In this document: positions 26 to 21,441 of the stretch, in pieces | How positions within the stretch are numbered: the stretch's first letter is position 1 | How the letters are laid out: the number at the start of each line of letters is the position of its first letter | Source of the DNA: Bacillota bacterium | GTDB taxonomy: Bacteria; Bacillota; Limnochordia; DTU080; JAAYLA01 | Direction of reading: 5' to 3' | DNA length: 35,485 nucleotides | Assembly (NCBI GenBank): GCA_012522135.1 | Contig: JAAYLA010000192.1 | Span: 1 to 35,485 of the forward strand | The notes under the pieces: generated by a model | Database searches by the model: none | What the model was told of the DNA's origin: nothing | The model's input: only the letters and a program-made list of their open reading frames with translations | Program-made: the position numbers and the translations under genes

Positions 26-1336
26 ATGAGTGGCCGTGGAAGATCGCTCGCTTCGCCCGGCGGAAAAGGCCGCGGCAAGATGCTCCTGGCCGCGGTGCTG
101 ACGCTCGCGCTGCTAGTGACCGGAGCGTCGAGTGCGCTGGCCGACGCTCCGCAACCGAAGAACATTATCTACATGATCGGCGACGGCATGGGCCACGTGC
201 AGCTGGAGGTCGCACGGCTCGTGAAAGGCGGCCCCCTGGCCATGGACCTCTTTCCCGTCCAGCACAAGGCAGCGAACGCGTCCTTGGACAATGCGGTCAC
301 CGACTCGGCCGCTGCCGGCACTGCTCACGCGACGGGTTACCGGACGAACAACGGCATGGTGGCGATGCTGCCTGACGGCCGGGAGCTCACGAGCGCTCTG
401 CGCATCGCCCAGGCGGCGGGCAAAGCCACGGGGGTCGTCGTTACGGACATCGTTTACGGTGCCACACCCGGCTCGTACCTTGCTACCGTCAATAACCGCA
501 GCGAGCAAAATGCCATTTTGGAACAGGCGCTCTTCCGCACGCAACCGGACGTGCTGCTCGGCGGGGGGCTGTCCGTCTTCAACGCGATCGGCGGTGCCGA
601 CCGGCTGGCTGAAACCCCGTACGATTTCGTGACCACCCGCGACGCGCTCTTGGCATGGGAACCGATTTCAGGCAGGAAGCTGCTCGGCCTGTTCGCCTCG
701 AGCACGATGTCGTACGAACTGGACCGTCCGGCAAATGAGCCGCACATCGTCGAGATGGTGCATGCCGCCCTCGAGTTTCTCTCCCAAAGCGACGCGGGCT
801 TTTTCCTGATGGTCGAAGGCTCGCGCATCGACCACGCCGGCCATGCGAACGACCTTCTCCGCGGCATACACGAAACGCTCGCATTCGACCAGGCGGTCGA
901 GCTTGTTCTGAACTTCGCCGAAGAGCGCGGCGACACCCTGGTCGTGGTGACGGCCGACCACGAGACGGGCGGACTTACTGCGCCGACCAAGAAGCCTTCG
1001 CCCGTCGTAATGGACCGGGGCGTTTCGACCGTGGCGAGTGAGATCCGCGCGGCGCTGAATCAGAATCCCGACGCAAACATCGTCGAGCTTTTCGCCCGCT
1101 ACGCCGGCATCGATGATCTGACGTCCCGGGTGCAGGCGGGAAACCTCGACGAACTCATCCGTTCGGTCCTTTCCGACCGGGCCTTTACGTACACCACGAC
1201 GAACCACACGGCGGCGCCGGTGCCGGTTCTCGCCTTCGGCCCTGGAGCGGAACTCTTTGCGGAGGTCGAGCACATCGCCGACATGGGCCGCCTGACGATT
1301 GAGCTATTGGGCGGCTCGGCAGGAGGTGACCGGTAA
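26..1336 (+). CDS. Secreted alkaline phosphatase (PhoA family)
   Basis: This is predicted to hydrolyse phosphate monoesters outside the cytoplasm. The 436-residue product opens with a basic segment and a hydrophobic signal peptide, with likely cleavage after SSALA near residue 39. Family motifs are clear: GDGMG at 52-56 (metal Asp53), TDSAA with nucleophile Ser94, EGSRIDHAGH at 264-273 (metal Glu264, Asp269, His273), TADHETGG at 309-316 (Asp311, His312) and the late metal ligand His394. The segment equal to the DATP or HATP motif of relatives reads YGATP (145-149), so the Asp or His at the third metal site is Gly146. ATG at 26 is preceded by a strong AAGGAAGGTGATC ribosome site. The stop overlaps the next start (TAATG), so the two genes are probably co-translated. 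Family assignment is firm; substrate range is unknown. Confidence 0.95.
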   Translation: MSGRGRSLASPGGKGRGKMLLAAVLTLALLVTGASSALADAPQPKNIIYMIGDGMGHVQLEVARLVKGGPLAMDLFPVQHKAANASLDNAVTDSAAAGTAHATGYRTNNGMVAMLPDGRELTSALRIAQAAGKATGVVVTDIVYGATPGSYLATVNNRSEQNAILEQALFRTQPDVLLGGGLSVFNAIGGADRLAETPYDFVTTRDALLAWEPISGRKLLGLFASSTMSYELDRPANEPHIVEMVHAALEFLSQSDAGFFLMVEGSRIDHAGHANDLLRGIHETLAFDQAVELVLNFAEERGDTLVVVTADHETGGLTAPTKKPSPVVMDRGVSTVASEIRAALNQNPDANIVELFARYAGIDDLTSRVQAGNLDELIRSVLSDRAFTYTTTNHTAAPVPVLAFGPGAELFAEVEHIADMGRLTIELLGGSAGGDR

Positions 1337-2871: not shown

Positions 2872-5136
2872 ATGCATACGACGGAGCCTATCCCGGCGCA
2901 GGTCGAATCGCTCCTCAACGCACACGGCGTCCAGCTTCCCTCTTTACACCTCCTACTGGCAACCGACATGACTTTGACCGGCCACTACTCGGAATCGTGG
3001 CTCGGCGTGGACGACAAGTACGTCTATATGATCTCGCCGAGTCCGAGCTACGAGCAGAACGGCCGTTCGGCAGGTCCGGGAGCGTCTTTGCGCTTCGAGA
3101 CCTACCCGTTGGCGGATATCGAAGAGGTGCGGTCCGTCAACATGATGGGCAACGGCATGCTGGTCCTGCGCACGAAGCAGACCGAGTTCGTCCTGTGCCG
3201 CTACTCGAACACCCGGGCAAAGCAGTTGGGCCAGTTCGCCAAGATCGTGAACAAGCTGGCCAAGGGCGAAGCGCTCGAGGCGGAGGACTTTGAAGATCCG
3301 CGCGCGGAAGTGGCGTGCCCCAAGTGCGGCCAGCTTTATCCCGACCAAAACCGCAAGGTGTGTCCGAAGTGCGTCGACCGGCGCAGCGTCTTCCTGCGGG
3401 TACTCTCCTTCGTGCCGCGGTACAAGACGCAAATCGCGCTGATCCTCTTTTTCATGCTGGCCGGCGTCGCCCTCAACGCGCTGAACCCGTATATCCAGGG
3501 CGTCATCCTATTTGACGAGGTGCTGGCAGAGGACGGAAAATACCACGGACGCCTGGTGGAGATGGTCTTCGTCATCGCCGGGCTGCAGCTCGTCTCGCTC
3601 CTCACCAGCATTATGCACGCCCGCATCAACGCCCAGATGACGGCGGAAGTGGTGCGCGACTTGAAGGTGGAAGTCTACGCGGCCATGCAGCGCCTGTCCT
3701 TGGGCTTTTTCACGAAACGACAGACGGGCAGCCTGATGACGCGGGTCAACGACGATGCGATGAACCTGCAGTATTTCTTCCATGACGGCCTGCCCTTCTT
3801 CATCGTCAACTGCCTGCAGATCATCGCCATCGTCACGGTCATGCTGAGGCTGAACTGGCAGCTTGCCCTCGTCTTGCTTGTGCCGGCGCCCGCCATCGTA
3901 TGGTTCGTGGCCAAGGTCTATCCCAAGTTGTGGAAGATCTTCACGAGGCGCCACATGAAGAACCGGGCCTTGAACGCGGTGCTCAACGACACGCTGACGG
4001 GCTTTCGGGTCGTGAAGGCGTTCGGGCGCGAGGACGCGGAGATCGACCGGTTCGAAGTGCGGAACCTGGACGTCTACGATGTGTCGCTGGCGGAAGGCCG
4101 TATGAAGGCGATACTTTTCCCCACCATGTCGATGCTCATGAGCTTGGGCGGGTTCGTCGTCTGGGCGTTGGGCGGGGCGCAGGTGTTGACGGGTGCGCTT
4201 ACCTTCGGCACCTTGATGACGTTTATCAATTACCTGGGGATGCTCTACGGTCCCCTGGAATTCATGACCCATATCGTCGACTGGTGGACCCACTGTATGA
4301 ATGCGGCCCAGCGCATCTTTGAGCTGTTGGACGCGCAGTCCGACGTGCCCGAAGCGGCCAATCCCGTGCGGCTGCCTGCAATCCGCGGCGAGGTGGAGAT
4401 CGACAACGTCACCTTCGAGTACGAGCCGAACAAACCCGTCCTGCGCGACATCAACCTCCACATCAAGCCGGGCGAGATGATCGGCTTGGTTGGCCATTCG
4501 GGAGCGGGCAAGTCGACCATCACAAACCTGATCAGCCGGCTGTACGACGTCACGGAAGGCGCGATCCGCATCGACGGCGTCGACGTGCGCGACGCGTCCG
4601 TCGCCGACCTGCGGCGCCAGATCGGCATGGTGCTCCAAGAGCCCTATCTTTTCCAGGGCAGCATCGCCGAGAACATCGCCTACGCCAAGCCCGACGCGAC
4701 GCCGGAGGAGATCATCCTGGCCGCGATGATGGCCAACGCCCACTACTTCATCGTGAATCTGCCCGACGGCTACGATACGGTGATCGGCCGGCGCGGGCAC
4801 AACTTGTCGGGCGGCGAGCGGCAGCGCATCTCGATTGCCCGGGCCCTTTTGCACAACCCGCGCATTTTGATCCTGGACGAAGCGACGGCCTCGGTCGACA
4901 CCGAGACGGAACGCAACATCCAGGAAGCTTTGGAGCGGCTGTTCGAGGGCAGGACCACCATCGCCATCGCGCACAGGCTCTCGACGTTGCGTGACGCCGA
5001 CCGCCTGGTGGTGATCGAAAAAGGGCAGATCGTCGAAGTGGGAACCCACGCCGAGCTCGTGAAGAAACGGGGCGTCTACTACAACCTACTGCAAAAGCAG
5101 CGTGAAGCGTTGAAGATCGGGGTGAAAATCGCGTGA
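2872..5136 (+). CDS. ABC half-exporter 1 with PH-like domain and zinc ribbon
   Basis: This fused permease-ATPase half-transporter (754 residues) probably pairs with the one at 5673 to form a heterodimeric exporter. Order of parts: a soluble beta-rich N-terminal segment (about 20-140) that ends in an amphipathic helix and resembles a bacterial PH-like domain; a zinc ribbon with CxxC pairs at Cys149/152 and Cys164/167; an ABC-type six-helix membrane domain (about 185-460); and a C-terminal ATPase. The ATPase has Walker A GHSGAGKS (541-548), signature LSGGERQ (645-651), Walker B ILILDE with Asp669 and Glu670, and H-loop His701, so it looks catalytically complete. ATG at 2872 follows GGGGGAG. The stop overlaps the DUF1854 gene. 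NCBI calls relatives in such loci cyanophycin metabolism-associated ABC transporters, but no cyanophycin gene lies in this window, so the substrate is open. Confidence 0.92.
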   Translation: MHTTEPIPAQVESLLNAHGVQLPSLHLLLATDMTLTGHYSESWLGVDDKYVYMISPSPSYEQNGRSAGPGASLRFETYPLADIEEVRSVNMMGNGMLVLRTKQTEFVLCRYSNTRAKQLGQFAKIVNKLAKGEALEAEDFEDPRAEVACPKCGQLYPDQNRKVCPKCVDRRSVFLRVLSFVPRYKTQIALILFFMLAGVALNALNPYIQGVILFDEVLAEDGKYHGRLVEMVFVIAGLQLVSLLTSIMHARINAQMTAEVVRDLKVEVYAAMQRLSLGFFTKRQTGSLMTRVNDDAMNLQYFFHDGLPFFIVNCLQIIAIVTVMLRLNWQLALVLLVPAPAIVWFVAKVYPKLWKIFTRRHMKNRALNAVLNDTLTGFRVVKAFGREDAEIDRFEVRNLDVYDVSLAEGRMKAILFPTMSMLMSLGGFVVWALGGAQVLTGALTFGTLMTFINYLGMLYGPLEFMTHIVDWWTHCMNAAQRIFELLDAQSDVPEAANPVRLPAIRGEVEIDNVTFEYEPNKPVLRDINLHIKPGEMIGLVGHSGAGKSTITNLISRLYDVTEGAIRIDGVDVRDASVADLRRQIGMVLQEPYLFQGSIAENIAYAKPDATPEEIILAAMMANAHYFIVNLPDGYDTVIGRRGHNLSGGERQRISIARALLHNPRILILDEATASVDTETERNIQEALERLFEGRTTIAIAHRLSTLRDADRLVVIEKGQIVEVGTHAELVKKRGVYYNLLQKQREALKIGVKIA

Positions 5137-5651
5137 GCGAACAAAAAGGTCTCGAGGCATACGCAGAAATACGCTTCCTCGCGCCCGAAGAATGCCGCTT
5201 TGAGGAAAGTCCCGGCGGCCTTCTCGTCCTGCACGTCGACGGCGAGCGGTACGAGAGCGTCGCCGTTCACCGCGCTTTTCCCTTCACCTACGGCGACGAT
5301 TACCTGTCGGTGCGCGACAAAGAGGGCAACGAGATCGGCATGATCAAGACCCTCAAAGTGTTTGACGAGCAGACGCAAACGCTCATCCGCAAGGAGCTCG
5401 AACGGCGGTATTTCGTCCCGACCATCACGCGCATCGACCGCATAAAGGAAGAGTTCGGTTACGGCTACTGGGAAGTGCAAACCGACAGGGGACCGCGGCG
5501 CCTGACTATCCGCGGCGTTCATGAAAGCGTCATCCCTATCGGCGAGGAGCGGGTTCTCATCATAGACGTCGACGGCAACCGCTACGAGATTCCTCGCCTG
5601 TCGGACTTGGACCCCAAGAGCTACAAACTGATCGACCAATATTTGGTGTAA
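5133..5651 (+). CDS. DUF1854 protein between two ABC half-exporters
   Basis: This small soluble protein (172 residues) matches the DUF1854 family, which is known from genes beside ABC exporters of this type. It has no signal peptide or membrane segment. The charged, strand-rich N-terminal half is followed by a conserved-looking block: a region ending RRYFVPTITRIDRIKEEFGY (about 90-110), then the pattern YWEVQTDRGPRRLTIRG. GTG at 5133 overlaps the stop of the first ABC gene (GTGA), and the second ABC gene starts 21 nt downstream, so all three are one operon. An accessory or regulatory role on the cytoplasmic side of the exporter is inferred from context; no biochemical activity is assigned. 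Confidence 0.88.
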   Translation: MSEQKGLEAYAEIRFLAPEECRFEESPGGLLVLHVDGERYESVAVHRAFPFTYGDDYLSVRDKEGNEIGMIKTLKVFDEQTQTLIRKELERRYFVPTITRIDRIKEEFGYGYWEVQTDRGPRRLTIRGVHESVIPIGEERVLIIDVDGNRYEIPRLSDLDPKSYKLIDQYLV

Positions 5652-5672
5652 CGCGGGAAAAGGAGAGAGCTC

Positions 5673-7847
5673 ATGGCTACCGAGATACGGCTTCAGGACG
5701 CGCCCGGTGAGAAGGCGCCGCTTTTCGTCCTGCCGGCCGACATCGATCACGAAGGTCGTTTTATAGAAAGCGAGCTCCACGTATTCCCGGAGGAACTGCG
5801 CGTGGTCACGTCAGGCGTGATCGAGCGCTCCATTCCGCTCGCGCGGGTCACGGAACTGCGGGCCGAAGGGCTGGTGGGCAACGGCAGCCTGGTCGCAGTC
5901 GTAGACGGCGAGGAGCAACTGGTCGTCCGCTACACCAACGACCACCTGGCCCGGTACAGCGAGATGGCGCGTCAGGTCAACCGGATGCTCAAAGGCGAAC
6001 CGTACTCGACCATCCTAACGGCGGACGAGCGGATTTGCCCCAAGTGCGGCCGGTACCTGCCCGGGGGCTCGACTGTGTGCCCGCGCTGCGTGGACAAAAC
6101 CGCGGTATTAAAGAGGATGTGGCAGGTGACCAAGCCGCACGTGCAATGGCTCATTCTCGGTACCGGGATTTTCTGGGTAATCGCCCTATTGCGCCTGGCG
6201 GGTCCCCAGATCAACCGCATGCTCGTCAACACGGTGCTGCAAAGCGGCACGGGCACCATGGGCCAGCTGCTGTTTTACGTGGGACTCATGGTCGCGGTGG
6301 CCGTTGCAACGAACTTGATGCACGTGGCGCAAGCACGGGTAATGACGAATTTGAGCAGCCGCCTGTCCCGAGATCTGCGCAGCCTCGTTTACGCTAAGAT
6401 CCAAGAGCTGACCTTGACCTACATCTCGCGCAGAAAAACCGGCGACCTGATGAACCGGGTGCGCCGCGACACGAACACGATTCAGCGCTTCATCCAAGGC
6501 CAGGCCGCGGCCGGCATCAACGAAGGGCTCTTGCTGATCGGGATCTGCGTCATCATCTTTGCCTACGACTGGAAGCTGGCTGCGCTCGTGATCTTGCCGG
6601 CACCTTTCGTGGTGGCGATTGCTGGAGCCATCCGCAAGCGCATCCGCATTATGTATCACCAGCAGTGGCGTGCTGGAGACCAGGCCGACTCGCTCCTGCA
6701 GGACGTGCTGAGCGGCGTGCGGGTCGTGAAGGCGTTCGGACAGGAGGAGCGTGAGGTCCGGCGATTCGTGCGCTACAGTCACAAGCTGGCCGAGATCACC
6801 GCGCGCAACGAGAAAACGTGGAACACCCTGTTTCCCTCGCTGCGCTACATCATGGGGGTCGGCAGCTTCATCGTACTGCTCTACGGCGGACAGAGGGTCT
6901 TGGGCAAGCAGATGGACATCGGCGAGCTGGTGCAGTTTAGCCAGTACGCGGGCATGCTCTATGGGCCGTTGCAGTTCGTCAGCTTCTTCCCGCGCTGGTT
7001 TACCGAAGCGATGACCGCAGCGGAACGCATATTTGAAGTGATCGACGCCGAGCCCGACGTACAGGAAAGTCCCCGGGCGCTAGAGCACACGATCGAAGGC
7101 CGCATTGAGTTTCAAAATGTCACGTTCGGCTACGAGAAGCACGAGCCGGTGTTGGAAGACATCAATCTCGTGATCGAACCGGGCGAGATGGTGGGACTCG
7201 TGGGCCACTCGGGCGCGGGCAAGTCGACGATGATCAACCTGGTGTGCCGCTTCTACGACGTCGACGAAGGGCGCATCTTGATCGACGGCATCGACATTCG
7301 GGACATTGCCCAACACTCCCTGCGGTCCCAGATCGGCGTCGTGCTGCAAGAGACGTTCCTGTTCTCGGGGACGATCTATGAAAACATCGCCTACGCGAAG
7401 GACGACGCCACGCCCGAAGAGGTGATCCGGGCCGCGAAGATCGCCAACGCGCACGACTTCATCATGCGTTTTCCGGACGGTTACGACACCCGGGTAGGCG
7501 AACGGGGCCAAAGACTTTCCGGCGGGGAGCGACAGCGCATCGCCATCGCCCGGGCCATATTGCACGATCCGAAGATCTTAATCCTGGACGAAGCGACCGC
7601 GTCCGTCGACACCGAAACGGAGTACCAGATTCAAGAGGCACTGGCACGGCTTGTGAAAAACCGGACCACCATCGCTATCGCCCACCGGCTCTCGACCCTG
7701 CGCAACGCCGACCGCCTGGTCGTGCTGGATAAGGGTCGCATCGCCGAGGTGGGCACCCACGACGAGCTGATGCGGGCAAAGGGCATCTACTACCGGCTCG
7801 TCCAGGCGCAGAGACAGATGTGGCGGGTGCGCGCCGTGGAAGGCTGA
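5673..7847 (+). CDS. ABC half-exporter 2 with PH-like domain and zinc ribbon
   Basis: This is the second fused permease-ATPase (724 residues), a paralogue of the one at 2872 with the same unusual layout. A soluble PH-like N-terminal segment (about 15-110) is followed by a zinc ribbon (Cys122/125 and Cys136/139), the ABC exporter membrane domain (about 155-425) and the ATPase. ATPase motifs are complete: Walker A GHSGAGKS (511-518), signature LSGGERQ (615-621), Walker B Asp639-Glu640 and H-loop His671. Because both partners keep a Walker B glutamate, both sites may hydrolyse ATP, unlike many heterodimeric exporters with one degenerate site. The start follows AAGGAGAG at good spacing. It ends 49 nt before the convergent Sir2 gene, with no clear terminator between. 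Confidence 0.92.
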   Translation: MATEIRLQDAPGEKAPLFVLPADIDHEGRFIESELHVFPEELRVVTSGVIERSIPLARVTELRAEGLVGNGSLVAVVDGEEQLVVRYTNDHLARYSEMARQVNRMLKGEPYSTILTADERICPKCGRYLPGGSTVCPRCVDKTAVLKRMWQVTKPHVQWLILGTGIFWVIALLRLAGPQINRMLVNTVLQSGTGTMGQLLFYVGLMVAVAVATNLMHVAQARVMTNLSSRLSRDLRSLVYAKIQELTLTYISRRKTGDLMNRVRRDTNTIQRFIQGQAAAGINEGLLLIGICVIIFAYDWKLAALVILPAPFVVAIAGAIRKRIRIMYHQQWRAGDQADSLLQDVLSGVRVVKAFGQEEREVRRFVRYSHKLAEITARNEKTWNTLFPSLRYIMGVGSFIVLLYGGQRVLGKQMDIGELVQFSQYAGMLYGPLQFVSFFPRWFTEAMTAAERIFEVIDAEPDVQESPRALEHTIEGRIEFQNVTFGYEKHEPVLEDINLVIEPGEMVGLVGHSGAGKSTMINLVCRFYDVDEGRILIDGIDIRDIAQHSLRSQIGVVLQETFLFSGTIYENIAYAKDDATPEEVIRAAKIANAHDFIMRFPDGYDTRVGERGQRLSGGERQRIAIARAILHDPKILILDEATASVDTETEYQIQEALARLVKNRTTIAIAHRLSTLRNADRLVVLDKGRIAEVGTHDELMRAKGIYYRLVQAQRQMWRVRAVEG

Positions 7848-9869: not shown

Positions 9870-10556
9870 ATGAAGAGGACTCTTTCCATTGCGTTGGTTG
9901 CGCTGTTCGCCCTCGTGTTGGCCGTGCCCGCCTTCGCTCAGGATGCGAAGACGGTTTACAGAGTAAAAGCCACGAAGTTCGCCGAGGCGCCCATTATCGA
10001 CGGCGAGCTCGATGACGCGGCGTGGCTCCAGGCCGCTAAGAACAACTCGGTCGTTGCCGGGTTCGTCAACCATCCCGGCACGATCCTCATGAAGAACCAG
10101 ACCGTCGTCCTCGTAGGCTGGGACGATGAGAACCTCTACCTGGCCTACCTCAACTACCGCGACATGTCTAAGGTGACGCGCTTCGAAGACGGCACGGTCA
10201 GCTTCGGTGCAGAGGAAGAGAACGAGTTCTGGTTCGACTACAACAATTCCGGCATTAACAGCGGCCAGTTTGCATGGGATTCCTACGGTGCGTACACCTC
10301 GCCCTCCGGCCACAGCACCGCCGGCGTGGAGGTTGCCGTGAAGGACACGCCCGTCGGCTGGGTTGCCGAGGTCAAGATCCCCCTCGCCAACCTGCTCGTG
10401 ACGGAGCCGGCCGAAGGCTACGAGCTGGGCTTCATCTTCACCGGCTACAGCACCGAAGAGAACATGTACTTCGGTTGGACGCCGACCTACGGCTCCTTCA
10501 ACAATCCGCCGCGCTGGGGCGTCCTCGAACTGGGTCCGGCCTACACGCCCTGGTAA
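9870..10556 (+). CDS. Secreted carbohydrate-binding (CBM9-like) domain protein
   Basis: This 228-residue exported protein has a signal peptide (core 5-20, likely cleavage after PAFA near 23) followed by one CBM9-like/DOMON-type beta-sandwich (Pfam CBM9_1 type). The domain opens with the hallmark APIIDGELDDAAW (about 39-51) and later shows WVAEVKIPLANLL and the aromatic-rich end YFGWTPTYGSFNNPP, as expected for sugar-binding faces. No catalytic domain is attached, so it is probably a free periplasmic or surface glycan-binding protein. ATG at 9870 follows a G-run (9855-9861). It stands alone between its own promoter and a very strong terminator, consistent with a highly expressed monocistronic transcript. 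The ligand is unknown. Confidence 0.85.
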   Translation: MKRTLSIALVALFALVLAVPAFAQDAKTVYRVKATKFAEAPIIDGELDDAAWLQAAKNNSVVAGFVNHPGTILMKNQTVVLVGWDDENLYLAYLNYRDMSKVTRFEDGTVSFGAEEENEFWFDYNNSGINSGQFAWDSYGAYTSPSGHSTAGVEVAVKDTPVGWVAEVKIPLANLLVTEPAEGYELGFIFTGYSTEENMYFGWTPTYGSFNNPPRWGVLELGPAYTPW

Positions 10557-18234: not shown

Positions 18235-18556
18235 TGATTGTCACTCCTCCGTTGATCTGGCTGCATTCACTTCCATATTGTCCACGGAAACGGCACTTCC
18301 TTGCCCTTCGGCCGCGGCGGCGGGTGCGGGGACGCTCGGGTGGCGTTTCATAGAAATCGGATCAGAAAGAAATCCTTATTCCCCACCTAAGATCGGAGAT
18401 ATTATTCATTCGCAGAGGAGGAATTGTCAGGGTCGGAGCAAAACTATTGCTGCGATGTGAATTTTCCTGCTTCCGGTGCGGCAAGGAGGTGAAAGCCGGC
18501 CTCAACGCCTTTGTCTGTCGACCACCGGACAAAGAATACAAGAAGGAGGAGCTCGA
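18235..18556. promoter_or_regulatory. 322-bp divergent control region with small overlapping frames
   Basis: No standard gene lies between the M32 and solute-binding genes. Toward the latter there is a TATTAT -10 candidate (18400-18405) without a good -35. Two tiny frames follow, 18424-18492 (TTG start) and 18489-18560 (GTG start), linked by GTGA and ATGA overlaps to each other and to the binding-protein start. A hairpin, CTTTGTC (18509-18515) with GACAAAG (18528-18534), lies before the GGAGGAG ribosome site. The first part (18260-18370) shows nothing clear. Confidence 0.4.
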
Positions 18557-19816
18557 ATGACCAGGCGTCTGTTGACAGTGTTATCCGTTTCCTTGCTTGC
18601 GGTCGCCTTGGCCTCGGGTTTTGCGTTCGCCCAGGAGCGCACCAAGGTGACGGTATGGCTCATCGGGCAGGAAGAGACGGGCTCGTACGGCCAGGTGTGG
18701 AAGATCATCAAGGAGCACATCGAAAATGACCTGCCCCACATCGAGGTCGATATGCAGTTCGGCGTGTCACCGGATACCCGCTACACCGTGGCTTACGCGG
18801 CGGGCATCGCGCCGGACGTGGTGACGCTTGCAACCCAAATGGCGCCGGCCTTTATCAACCAGGGCATGGTGTCGCCTTTGGATTTCGAAGTCTTCGGCGT
18901 GAGCAACGTCGACGAGTTCCGTGAGCTGTTTTACGCCGGCGCGCTGCGCAGCATCTACTTCCAGGACGAAATCTACTATTTCCCGGTCGAAGTGACGACT
19001 TGGGGCATGTACTACAACCCCGAGATGATGGACCGCTTCGGCGTCGGCCGGGACCAGGTGCCGCGGACTTGGGATGAACTGATCACGGTCGGCAAGCGGT
19101 TCATGCAGTCGGCGGACGGCGAGACGTGGGACACCGTAGGCCTTGCGCTCAACCGCGGCTGGCGCTGGCCGAGCTACCGCTACGTTGCGCTGCTGCGTCA
19201 GGCCGGCACGGACTGGCTGGTGAACGGCGAGCCGATGTTCGACAGCCCGCAGGCGATTGAAGCAATTTCGCTGTATGCGAGCCTGTTCCACGAAAACCAG
19301 ATCACCCATACGTTCAGCGAGCCGGCGCGGGCGTTTATCAACCAGCAGGCCGCCTTCTACCTCGGTCCCTCGTATGAGATCTTCACGTTGCGCGACCAGA
19401 TCCCGTTCGAGTGGGCTACGGCCGCGTATCCCGCGATCGACGTGAACAACCGGGTATCGACGAGCTACGCGTGGGGTTTGTTCGTCAACAGCCAATCCCA
19501 GGTGAAGAAGGAAGCCTGGGAGGTCGTCAAGTACCTCACCAGCGAGCGCTGGGCCCCCACTTGGCTCGCGACGAGCTCCCTTCTGATCCCGCGGGCCGGC
19601 GACTGGATCATGGACGTCATCGCGACGCAGCCGCAGCTCGCGCCGTTCATCATGGAACTGGAAGTCGCTCAGCTCGAGCTTTTCCATGAGAAGTACGGGC
19701 AGATCGTCAGCGAGATCACGACGGCGGACAACCAGATCATCGCCCGCACGGACAGCGTTTCCAACATCCTAACGCAGCTGAACGAAAGGATACGCGGCAT
19801 CCTAATGGGCGACTAA
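18557..19816 (+). CDS. ABC sugar-type solute-binding protein (family 1), non-lipoprotein
   Basis: This 419-residue extracytoplasmic binding protein belongs to the family 1 (maltose/oligosaccharide type) group. After the leader it begins KVTVWLIGQEETG, followed by the conserved APDVVTLATQMAPAFINQGMV region, YYFPVEVTTWGMYYNPEMMD, PRTWDELITVGKRF, AAFYLGPSYEIF, and the C-terminal AWEVVKYLTSE. These are classic features of sugar binders. The leader is signal-peptidase-I type, ending AFA near residue 26, with no lipobox cysteine, unlike most Bacillota binding proteins. ATG at 18557 follows GGAGGAG. No permease or ATPase genes are adjacent, so it must use a transporter encoded elsewhere. A strong terminator and then the NagZ-like gene follow, suggesting an amino-sugar or oligosaccharide ligand. 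Confidence 0.9.
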   Translation: MTRRLLTVLSVSLLAVALASGFAFAQERTKVTVWLIGQEETGSYGQVWKIIKEHIENDLPHIEVDMQFGVSPDTRYTVAYAAGIAPDVVTLATQMAPAFINQGMVSPLDFEVFGVSNVDEFRELFYAGALRSIYFQDEIYYFPVEVTTWGMYYNPEMMDRFGVGRDQVPRTWDELITVGKRFMQSADGETWDTVGLALNRGWRWPSYRYVALLRQAGTDWLVNGEPMFDSPQAIEAISLYASLFHENQITHTFSEPARAFINQQAAFYLGPSYEIFTLRDQIPFEWATAAYPAIDVNNRVSTSYAWGLFVNSQSQVKKEAWEVVKYLTSERWAPTWLATSSLLIPRAGDWIMDVIATQPQLAPFIMELEVAQLELFHEKYGQIVSEITTADNQIIARTDSVSNILTQLNERIRGILMGD

Positions 19817-19826
19817 GGAAAATGAA

Positions 19827-19863
19827 AAAGATGACGCCCGCTGCTCCGGCGGGCGTCATCTTT
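19827..19863 (+). terminator. Strong intrinsic terminator after the binding protein
   Basis: A perfect 15-bp stem, AAAGATGACGCCCGC (19827-19841) with GCGGGCGTCATCTTT (19849-19863), encloses a 7-nt loop, ten bases after the stop codon. The position excludes translation starts for the next gene upstream of about 19864. Confidence 0.9.
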
Positions 19864-19914
19864 GTGGACGGAGGGACGATCGAGGATGTGCCGCCACAGG
19901 GGGCCTGTAAGAAA

Positions 19915-21441
19915 ATGAACGACATGACGCTGAAGCAAGCCATCGGACAACTGTTTATGATCGGTATCCCCGGCGCTACGGTGGACGGCGCGTCGGAAGC
20001 CCTGCTCAAGCGATGGCAGATCGGTAACATCGTGCTGTTCGCCCGCAATCTGAAAGACGGCGTACAAGCCGCCCGGCTTACCGACGATCTACAGCGGCTG
20101 ATCACCGCCGAAACCGGCATACGGGCCTACATCAGCGCGGACCAGGAAGGCGGCATCGTGCTGCGGCTCGTGGACGGCGCCACGCCTTTCCCGGGAAATA
20201 TGGCCGTCGGCGCAACCGGTAAGCCCGAGTTCGCAGAGCAAATCGCGTACGCGATAGGTAGGGAGCTATTAGCCCTCGGCATCAACATGAATCTGGCGCC
20301 CGTCCTGGACGTGAACAACAACCCGAAAAACCCCGTCATCGGCGTCCGCTCGTTCGGCACCGATCCGGCCCGCGTCGCGAGGTTCGGCCGCGCCGCCGTC
20401 CGCGGTTACAAACGGGCAGGCATCGCCTGCGTGGCCAAACATTTCCCGGGCCACGGCGACACCGAGGCGGATTCCCACACCAGCCTGCCGACGATCCCGC
20501 GCGACTTGGGTGAATTGGAAAAGTGCGAGCTCCTGCCGTTCCGGGCAGCAATCGAGGAAGGCCTCGATGCGGTGATGACGGCCCACATCGCCTTCCCCAA
20601 GCTCGACGGCGTGCCGGCCACGTTGTCCAAGACGATTCTGACCGGCATCTTGCGCCGGCAGCTGGGCTTTAGCGGACTGATCCTTACCGACTCCATGCGC
20701 ATGGCGGGGGTAGCAGACTCCTACTCCCCTGCAGAAGCCGCGGTGATGGCCCTCAAGGCAGGTTGCGACATTCTGCTGTACAGCGGGATGGGCGAGGTGG
20801 AAGAAGCGGCGGTGCGGGCGGTACACGAGGCGGTAGCCCGCGGCGAGCTTTCCGAGGAGCGCATTTACGCCTCGGCCGAACGCATCGTCGCGGCGAAAAA
20901 GCGGCTCGTCCGGGAACGGCCTTCCGTGGACCTTGCCGCGCACGCGGACCTGGCGCGGCAAGTAAGCCGGAAAGCCGTCACTTTACGCCGGGACCGCGCC
21001 GGCCTCATCCCACTGCCCGTAGGGAACGTCACCGTGATCGAGGTGACCCGGCGGGCCATCACCCAAGTCGAAGAGCAGCTGCAGGAAACCGGCCTGCGGG
21101 CGCAGCTGGCCGATTTCCTGCCGGCCGCGCAGCACCTGGCGGCTCCGGCCAATCCGGATGCCCTTACGATCGAACAAGTGCTACGGGCCGCCCGGGGAGA
21201 CGTCGCGGTCGTCGTTACCCAAGACGCCTGGCGGCACGGCGGCCAACAAGATCTCCTGCGCCGGCTCGTCGCCCGCTATCCACAACGGATCATACACGTG
21301 GCCGGCCGCTTGCCCTATGATGTAGACCTCGTACCCGAAGTGCCGACGGCCCTGTGCATATACGACACGGTGACCCCGTCGATACGCGCCCTTCTTGAAG
21401 TACTTACCGGCCGCATCGAGCCTACCGGCAACCTGCCGTAA
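19915..21441 (+). CDS. nagZ: Beta-N-acetylhexosaminidase, GH3 family (NagZ-like)
   Basis: This enzyme cleaves terminal beta-linked N-acetylglucosamine, as in muropeptide or chito-oligosaccharide recycling. The 508-residue protein has an N-terminal TIM barrel with the NagZ signature KHFPGHGDTEADSH (175-188), giving the Asp186/His188 acid-base dyad, and nucleophile Asp259 in LTDSMRMAG. A C-terminal alpha/beta domain (about 350-505) matches the two-domain Gram-positive NagZ type. There is no signal peptide, so it appears cytosolic. The start is uncertain: ATG 19915 is chosen because earlier codons overlap the terminator, but GTG 19888 (behind GGAGGG) or ATG 19924 are possible. No strong promoter was found in the 50-bp gap after the terminator. 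Confidence 0.92.
   Translation: MNDMTLKQAIGQLFMIGIPGATVDGASEALLKRWQIGNIVLFARNLKDGVQAARLTDDLQRLITAETGIRAYISADQEGGIVLRLVDGATPFPGNMAVGATGKPEFAEQIAYAIGRELLALGINMNLAPVLDVNNNPKNPVIGVRSFGTDPARVARFGRAAVRGYKRAGIACVAKHFPGHGDTEADSHTSLPTIPRDLGELEKCELLPFRAAIEEGLDAVMTAHIAFPKLDGVPATLSKTILTGILRRQLGFSGLILTDSMRMAGVADSYSPAEAAVMALKAGCDILLYSGMGEVEEAAVRAVHEAVARGELSEERIYASAERIVAAKKRLVRERPSVDLAAHADLARQVSRKAVTLRRDRAGLIPLPVGNVTVIEVTRRAITQVEEQLQETGLRAQLADFLPAAQHLAAPANPDALTIEQVLRAARGDVAVVVTQDAWRHGGQQDLLRRLVARYPQRIIHVAGRLPYDVDLVPEVPTALCIYDTVTPSIRALLEVLTGRIEPTGNLP

Follow-up and report, generated by a model that had tools for sequence, protein, structure and literature searches.

The solute-binding protein and its leader

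Does the leader of a single exported protein tell whether its cell is surrounded by one membrane or by two? This question arises from a stretch of 35,485 nucleotides (the window, contig C285 of the host genome G000) encoding the solute-binding protein (SBP) of an ABC sugar importer. The lipoprotein SBPs of monoderm Bacillota are likewise binding proteins of ABC importers, but carry a lipobox cysteine (PMC7530257) and, in those analysed here, a flexible hydrophilic linker after it. The SBP of the window has neither. From its SPI-type leader without a following cysteine, an earlier note, made from the sequence alone, had suggested a diderm envelope.

In the profile search the open reading frame matched PF01547 (E 5.1e-23) and PF13416 (E 7.2e-18), and scored 83 bits with the SBP_bac_1 profile compared to a curated cut-off of 26, placing the protein in this family. 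A strong Shine-Dalgarno sequence (AAGGAGG) upstream of the ATG backs the start at 18557 (Table 1). In the leader MTRRLLTVLSVSLLAVALASGFAFA, followed by QERTK, a basic n-region precedes a hydrophobic core, and an AxA motif stands ahead of the predicted cut. That the leader is of the signal peptidase I (SPI) type, ends in AFA and is followed by no cysteine, as the earlier note had it, was confirmed: the leader comprises 25 residues, and there is no cysteine among all 419 residues counted from the ATG. A lipobox with a cysteine at +1, the mark of a lipoprotein, is absent. Since the sequence contains no cysteine, a lipid anchor on this residue is impossible for the protein made from the ATG. An alternative in-frame GTG start is located upstream at 18476 and would add one cysteine, N-terminal to the hydrophobic core. 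Judged by its sequence, the SBP is an ordinary sugar-binding transport protein lacking the usual lipid tether.

Table 1. Features of the window discussed in the text (hyphens within leaders mark the predicted cut)
Feature	Position	Strand	Basis
Alkaline phosphatase, SPI-type leader ...SSALA-DAP	26..1336	+	profile scan; leader by inspection
CBM9-like protein, SPI-type leader ...VPAFA-QDA	9870..10556	+	profile scan; leader by inspection
Shine-Dalgarno stretch AAGAAGGAGG 5' of the ATG	18540..18552	+	sequence
Solute-binding protein of an ABC sugar importer (SBP_bac_1), 419 aa, without cysteine	18557..19816	+	ORF and profile match
SPI leader of the SBP, 25 aa, predicted cut AFA-QE	18557..18631	+	sequence
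GC-rich strong hairpin just 3' of the SBP stop	19827..19863	.	-31 kcal/mol, z -6.5
GH3 beta-N-acetylhexosaminidase (NagZ-like)	19822..21441	+	NF003740 above cut-off

Leader type and outer membrane across the phylum

We compared 189 N-termini of SBP_bac_1 proteins from 46 genomes, 25 of them Omp85-positive and 21 Omp85-negative. Leaders were classified by a rule of our own instead of SignalP, under which a signal peptidase II (SPII) leader needs a lipobox preceded by a hydrophobic stretch and followed by a hydrophilic start. The Omp85-positive genomes exhibited 133 SPI, 4 ambiguous and 5 SPII-like leaders (n=142); leaving out the host genome, 48 of 51 SBPs were of SPI type. In the 21 Omp85-negative genomes, 46 of the 47 SBPs carried a lipobox and a single one an SPI leader, in agreement with the view of the earlier note that binding proteins of single-membrane Bacillota are, as a rule, lipid-anchored. 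Genomes with a majority of lipobox leaders accounted for 1/25 of the Omp85-positive, but for 20/21 of the Omp85-negative ones. Fisher p values were 4e-37 by protein, with SBPs of one genome not being independent and the sample favouring genomes rich in high-scoring SBPs, and 8e-11 by genome majority, a value that ignores ancestry. In this sample, an SPI leader on one SBP corresponds to a likelihood ratio of about 44 toward an outer membrane. The SPI leader is a good marker of the outer membrane in this sample of the phylum.

The host genome contributed 91 readable SBP leaders, comprising 85 SPI, 4 ambiguous and 2 nominally lipobox-like cases. By inspection, the latter two (L046, L221) fit SPI cleavage, too. 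Signal peptidase II is encoded in the host genome as well as in all 30 relatives searched for it, so the SPI leaders do not result from missing lipoprotein machinery. With 121 SBP_bac_1 matches in 3.2 Mb the number of such genes in the host is very high; two genomes of 7 Mb (G051, G094) contain 90 to 112 candidates.

Exceptions occur. One clear lipoprotein SBP was detected in the Omp85-positive genome G102, and a report on E. coli describes the SBP YcjN as a lipoprotein (PMC11543891). A single leader is not sufficient proof of an outer membrane.

The alkaline phosphatase and the CBM9-like protein of the window had been cited in the earlier note as a further hint of a diderm envelope. Their leaders are indeed of the same SPI type. 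Monoderms also secrete enzymes such as phosphatases and CBM9-like proteins, and for this reason these two leaders are not diagnostic.

Outer-membrane genes of the host and its relatives

The host genome (3.22 Mb, 399 contigs, 97.9% complete, 1.77% contamination) contains a set of genes for an outer membrane. Contig C232 carries a cluster encoding an S55-peptidase-domain protein, an Omp85 protein with POTRA domains, an OmpH/Skp-like protein, LpxD, an ABC-F-type ATPase, LptF/G and an LptD-like protein. The Omp85 protein matched the BamA model with E 4.6e-62, under the equivalog cut-off, whereas LpxD lay above its equivalog cut-off. Genes for LpxC, LpxA, an LpxB-like protein and a second LptF/G were found on contig C74. 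Thereby, LpxD, LpxC and LpxA are clear among the lipid A enzymes and the LpxB-like match is partial (E 4e-12); Lpt export is represented by the two LptF/G permeases and the LptD-like protein (E 1.7e-6). The lptD-like gene (C232:2405-4615, L041) is broken into two open reading frames, one of 504 and one of 205 aa, that do not share a frame; the break is either a genuine frameshift or an error of assembly.

On contig C353 we detected an OmpM-like candidate, a protein of 1152 aa. Like OmpM of diderm Terrabacteria (PMC10628300), it has an SLH domain at its N-terminus and a long coiled coil, and its C-terminal strand ends in Phe; the likeness is one of layout, and the barrel is putative. BamA, Lpt and OmpM homologues were the genes proposed in the earlier note for a search of the genome; the first two were found, and for the third there is the candidate on C353. 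Neither a genome devoid of outer-membrane genes nor a lipid anchor, which that note had named as evidence against two membranes, was encountered. TamB, common in the diderm group and not taken here as indispensable, was not found in the 399 contigs of this fragmented genome; it is present beside bamA in 5/5 relatives of the order. An S55-peptidase-domain protein is encoded upstream of bamA (L041:12138-14180, on C232), in the place of TamB.

Omp85 was present in 30/30 relatives searched at a completeness of at least 90%, and in GB_MAG17_124, RSA5 and RSA8 of the same class or order. It was not found in Sulfobacillus, Symbiobacterium, Thermaerobacter and Alicyclobacillus. In the sample of the phylum, 37 of 150 genomes contained Omp85 and 113 did not, and none of the 22 Omp85-negative genomes tested exhibited an LptF/G match over the cut-off.

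The kin genomes G002, G004 and G012 agree in their Omp85 coordinates with RSA5, RSA8 and GB_MAG17_124, respectively, and are taken to be identical with them; G012 is of the same class as the host. By these coordinates and names, the host is most likely a member of the Limnochordia, and RSA5 and RSA8 belong to its order. The genome of ZCTH02-B6 sp. GB_124, from a lineage assigned to this class (PMC8630151; PMC8434746), appears to be identical with GB_MAG17_124, and through it the host shares its class with the known Limnochordia diderms (PMC8630151). The outer membranes of cultured Limnochordia were seen by TEM (PMC11456536), and the same paper reports outer-membrane markers for every one of the 46 genomes covered by Taib et al. 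2020. BamA, OmpH-like, LpxA-D and LptF/G are common to the host and to Limnochorda pilosa, Geochorda and Carboxydochorda (PMC11456536). The host differs from them in the lack of a detected TamB and belongs to an apparently uncultured lineage, with an envelope predicted from its genes. Support for the diderm envelope suggested in the earlier note thus comes from the gene set and from the association of SPI leaders with Omp85. The inference of two membranes was correct, but the envelope type was already known for the class (PMC11456536).

Location of the protein and alternative explanations

In our view, with a probability of about 0.9, the SBP is a soluble protein in a true periplasm closed by an outer membrane, where it binds a carbohydrate for an ABC permease encoded elsewhere. 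Export would proceed through Sec, and cleavage by signal peptidase I behind AFA-25 would set the protein free in soluble form. The outer membrane bounding this periplasm would be made by BamA, Lpt and the lipid A enzymes, its tether probably being the OmpM-like protein. Sugar would enter via an OmpM-type pore, be captured by the soluble SBP and be passed to the permease.

Alternatively it might be that the leader type is simply inherited within lineages and follows the outer membrane by coincidence, the SBP descending from SPI-type families of its class. On a tree of rpoB fragments the outer-membrane label changes about 6 times, and only 2 independent contrasts lie on well supported branches, as a coincidental inheritance would allow. 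Both go in the expected direction (1.9 same, 0 opposite; too few for a sign test), and the split in leader type is seen across many families of the phylum, making such a coincidence unlikely. With so few independent contrasts on the tree, the effects of shared ancestry and of function are told apart only in part: the link between leader and Omp85 is strong as a description, as correlated evolution it is only suggestive.

A protein with this leader could also be secreted to the medium, or be retained by something other than a lipid, for instance an uncleaved leader, its permease or the cell wall; leader type would then carry no information on an outer membrane. The SBP gene has no permease gene next to it, and an SPI-type SBP occurs in one genome without Omp85, G040. 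This lone case (L373), however, is located on contig C32 of only 4.8 kb with a GC content of 0.474, compared to 0.51-0.55 in three other G040 contigs; due to the small size and lower GC it may be a misbinned contig, or a real exception. Moreover, SLH, sortase or other anchor motifs were not seen in the SBP by sequence and profile scan, and the outer-membrane gene set is present in the host. We therefore regard secretion or retention of this kind as very improbable. Contamination of the bin by the genome of another organism as the source of the outer-membrane genes is hardly credible: the 399 contigs and 1.77% contamination leave room for foreign DNA, but the GC content of C232 (0.63) resembles that of the window (0.60-0.66), the genome contains one Omp85 and one LpxC match, LpxC occurs in 5/5 relatives of the order, and 85 of the 91 SBPs, spread over many contigs, have an SPI leader.

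Returning to the soluble periplasmic SBP, the leader rule allows the envelope type to be read from a single exported protein when the origin of a genome is unknown, and numbers are now attached to this rule within one phylum holding both cell types. Each loss of the outer membrane in the phylum may have entailed the conversion or replacement of dozens of SBPs, from soluble to lipid-anchored, leaving the leader as a near-perfect envelope marker; we put this forward tentatively, at somewhat less than even odds. Should a larger tree bear the rule out, outer-membrane losses could be dated from SBP leaders, which would also show how monoderms originated in the evolution of the Bacillota.

Substrate, paralogue and partner permease

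The nearest solved relatives of the SBP are sugar-binding SBPs, among them Lin1841 (5ysb, E 1e-15) and an arabino-oligosaccharide-binding protein (6rjy), none of them a close match. About 320 residues align within this common sequence family, and the ligand is probably a carbohydrate. The relationship to Lin1841 is too remote for its substrate to be transferred. NgcE and other substrate-specific models stayed far under their cut-offs for the SBP. GlcNAc or chitobiose, guessed from the neighbouring NagZ, NagA and GH18, was dropped as a substrate for this reason.

A paralogue with 53% identity and a matching leader (...AGA-QT) is encoded in the host genome (C54:3583-4839, L319), adjoining a GDPD-family gene with a leader. 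A partner ABC permease was found neither among the window proteins scanned nor in the open reading frames beside the paralogue; an adjoining permease is usual for SBP_bac_1, though unnecessary for membership. A regular expression for permease EAA loops gave near-zero matches even beside other SBPs, the flanks being too short, and was discarded.

A search with the SBP against genome contigs returned no relatives, and close relatives of the pair were absent from the 150-genome phylum sample. The phylum search yielded only the paralogue from the same genome and remote SBPs of about 30% identity or less, so there is no set of orthologues for tracing the evolution of the gene.

Neighbouring genes

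The hairpin resembles a terminator on the - strand and, less strongly, on the + strand. Lying immediately 3' of the SBP stop codon, it points to an SBP gene that is transcribed on its own. A common operon with the GH3 gene was rejected, since the hairpin lies between them. The listed GH3 start at 19822 precedes the hairpin and is probably wrong, the true start being near 19912. No secretion leader was seen on the GH3 protein.

In the region 2872-7847, a DUF1854 gene lies between the genes of two half-transporters of ABC exporters, 754 and 724 aa long. Both half-transporters have an N-terminal extension with CxxC pairs.
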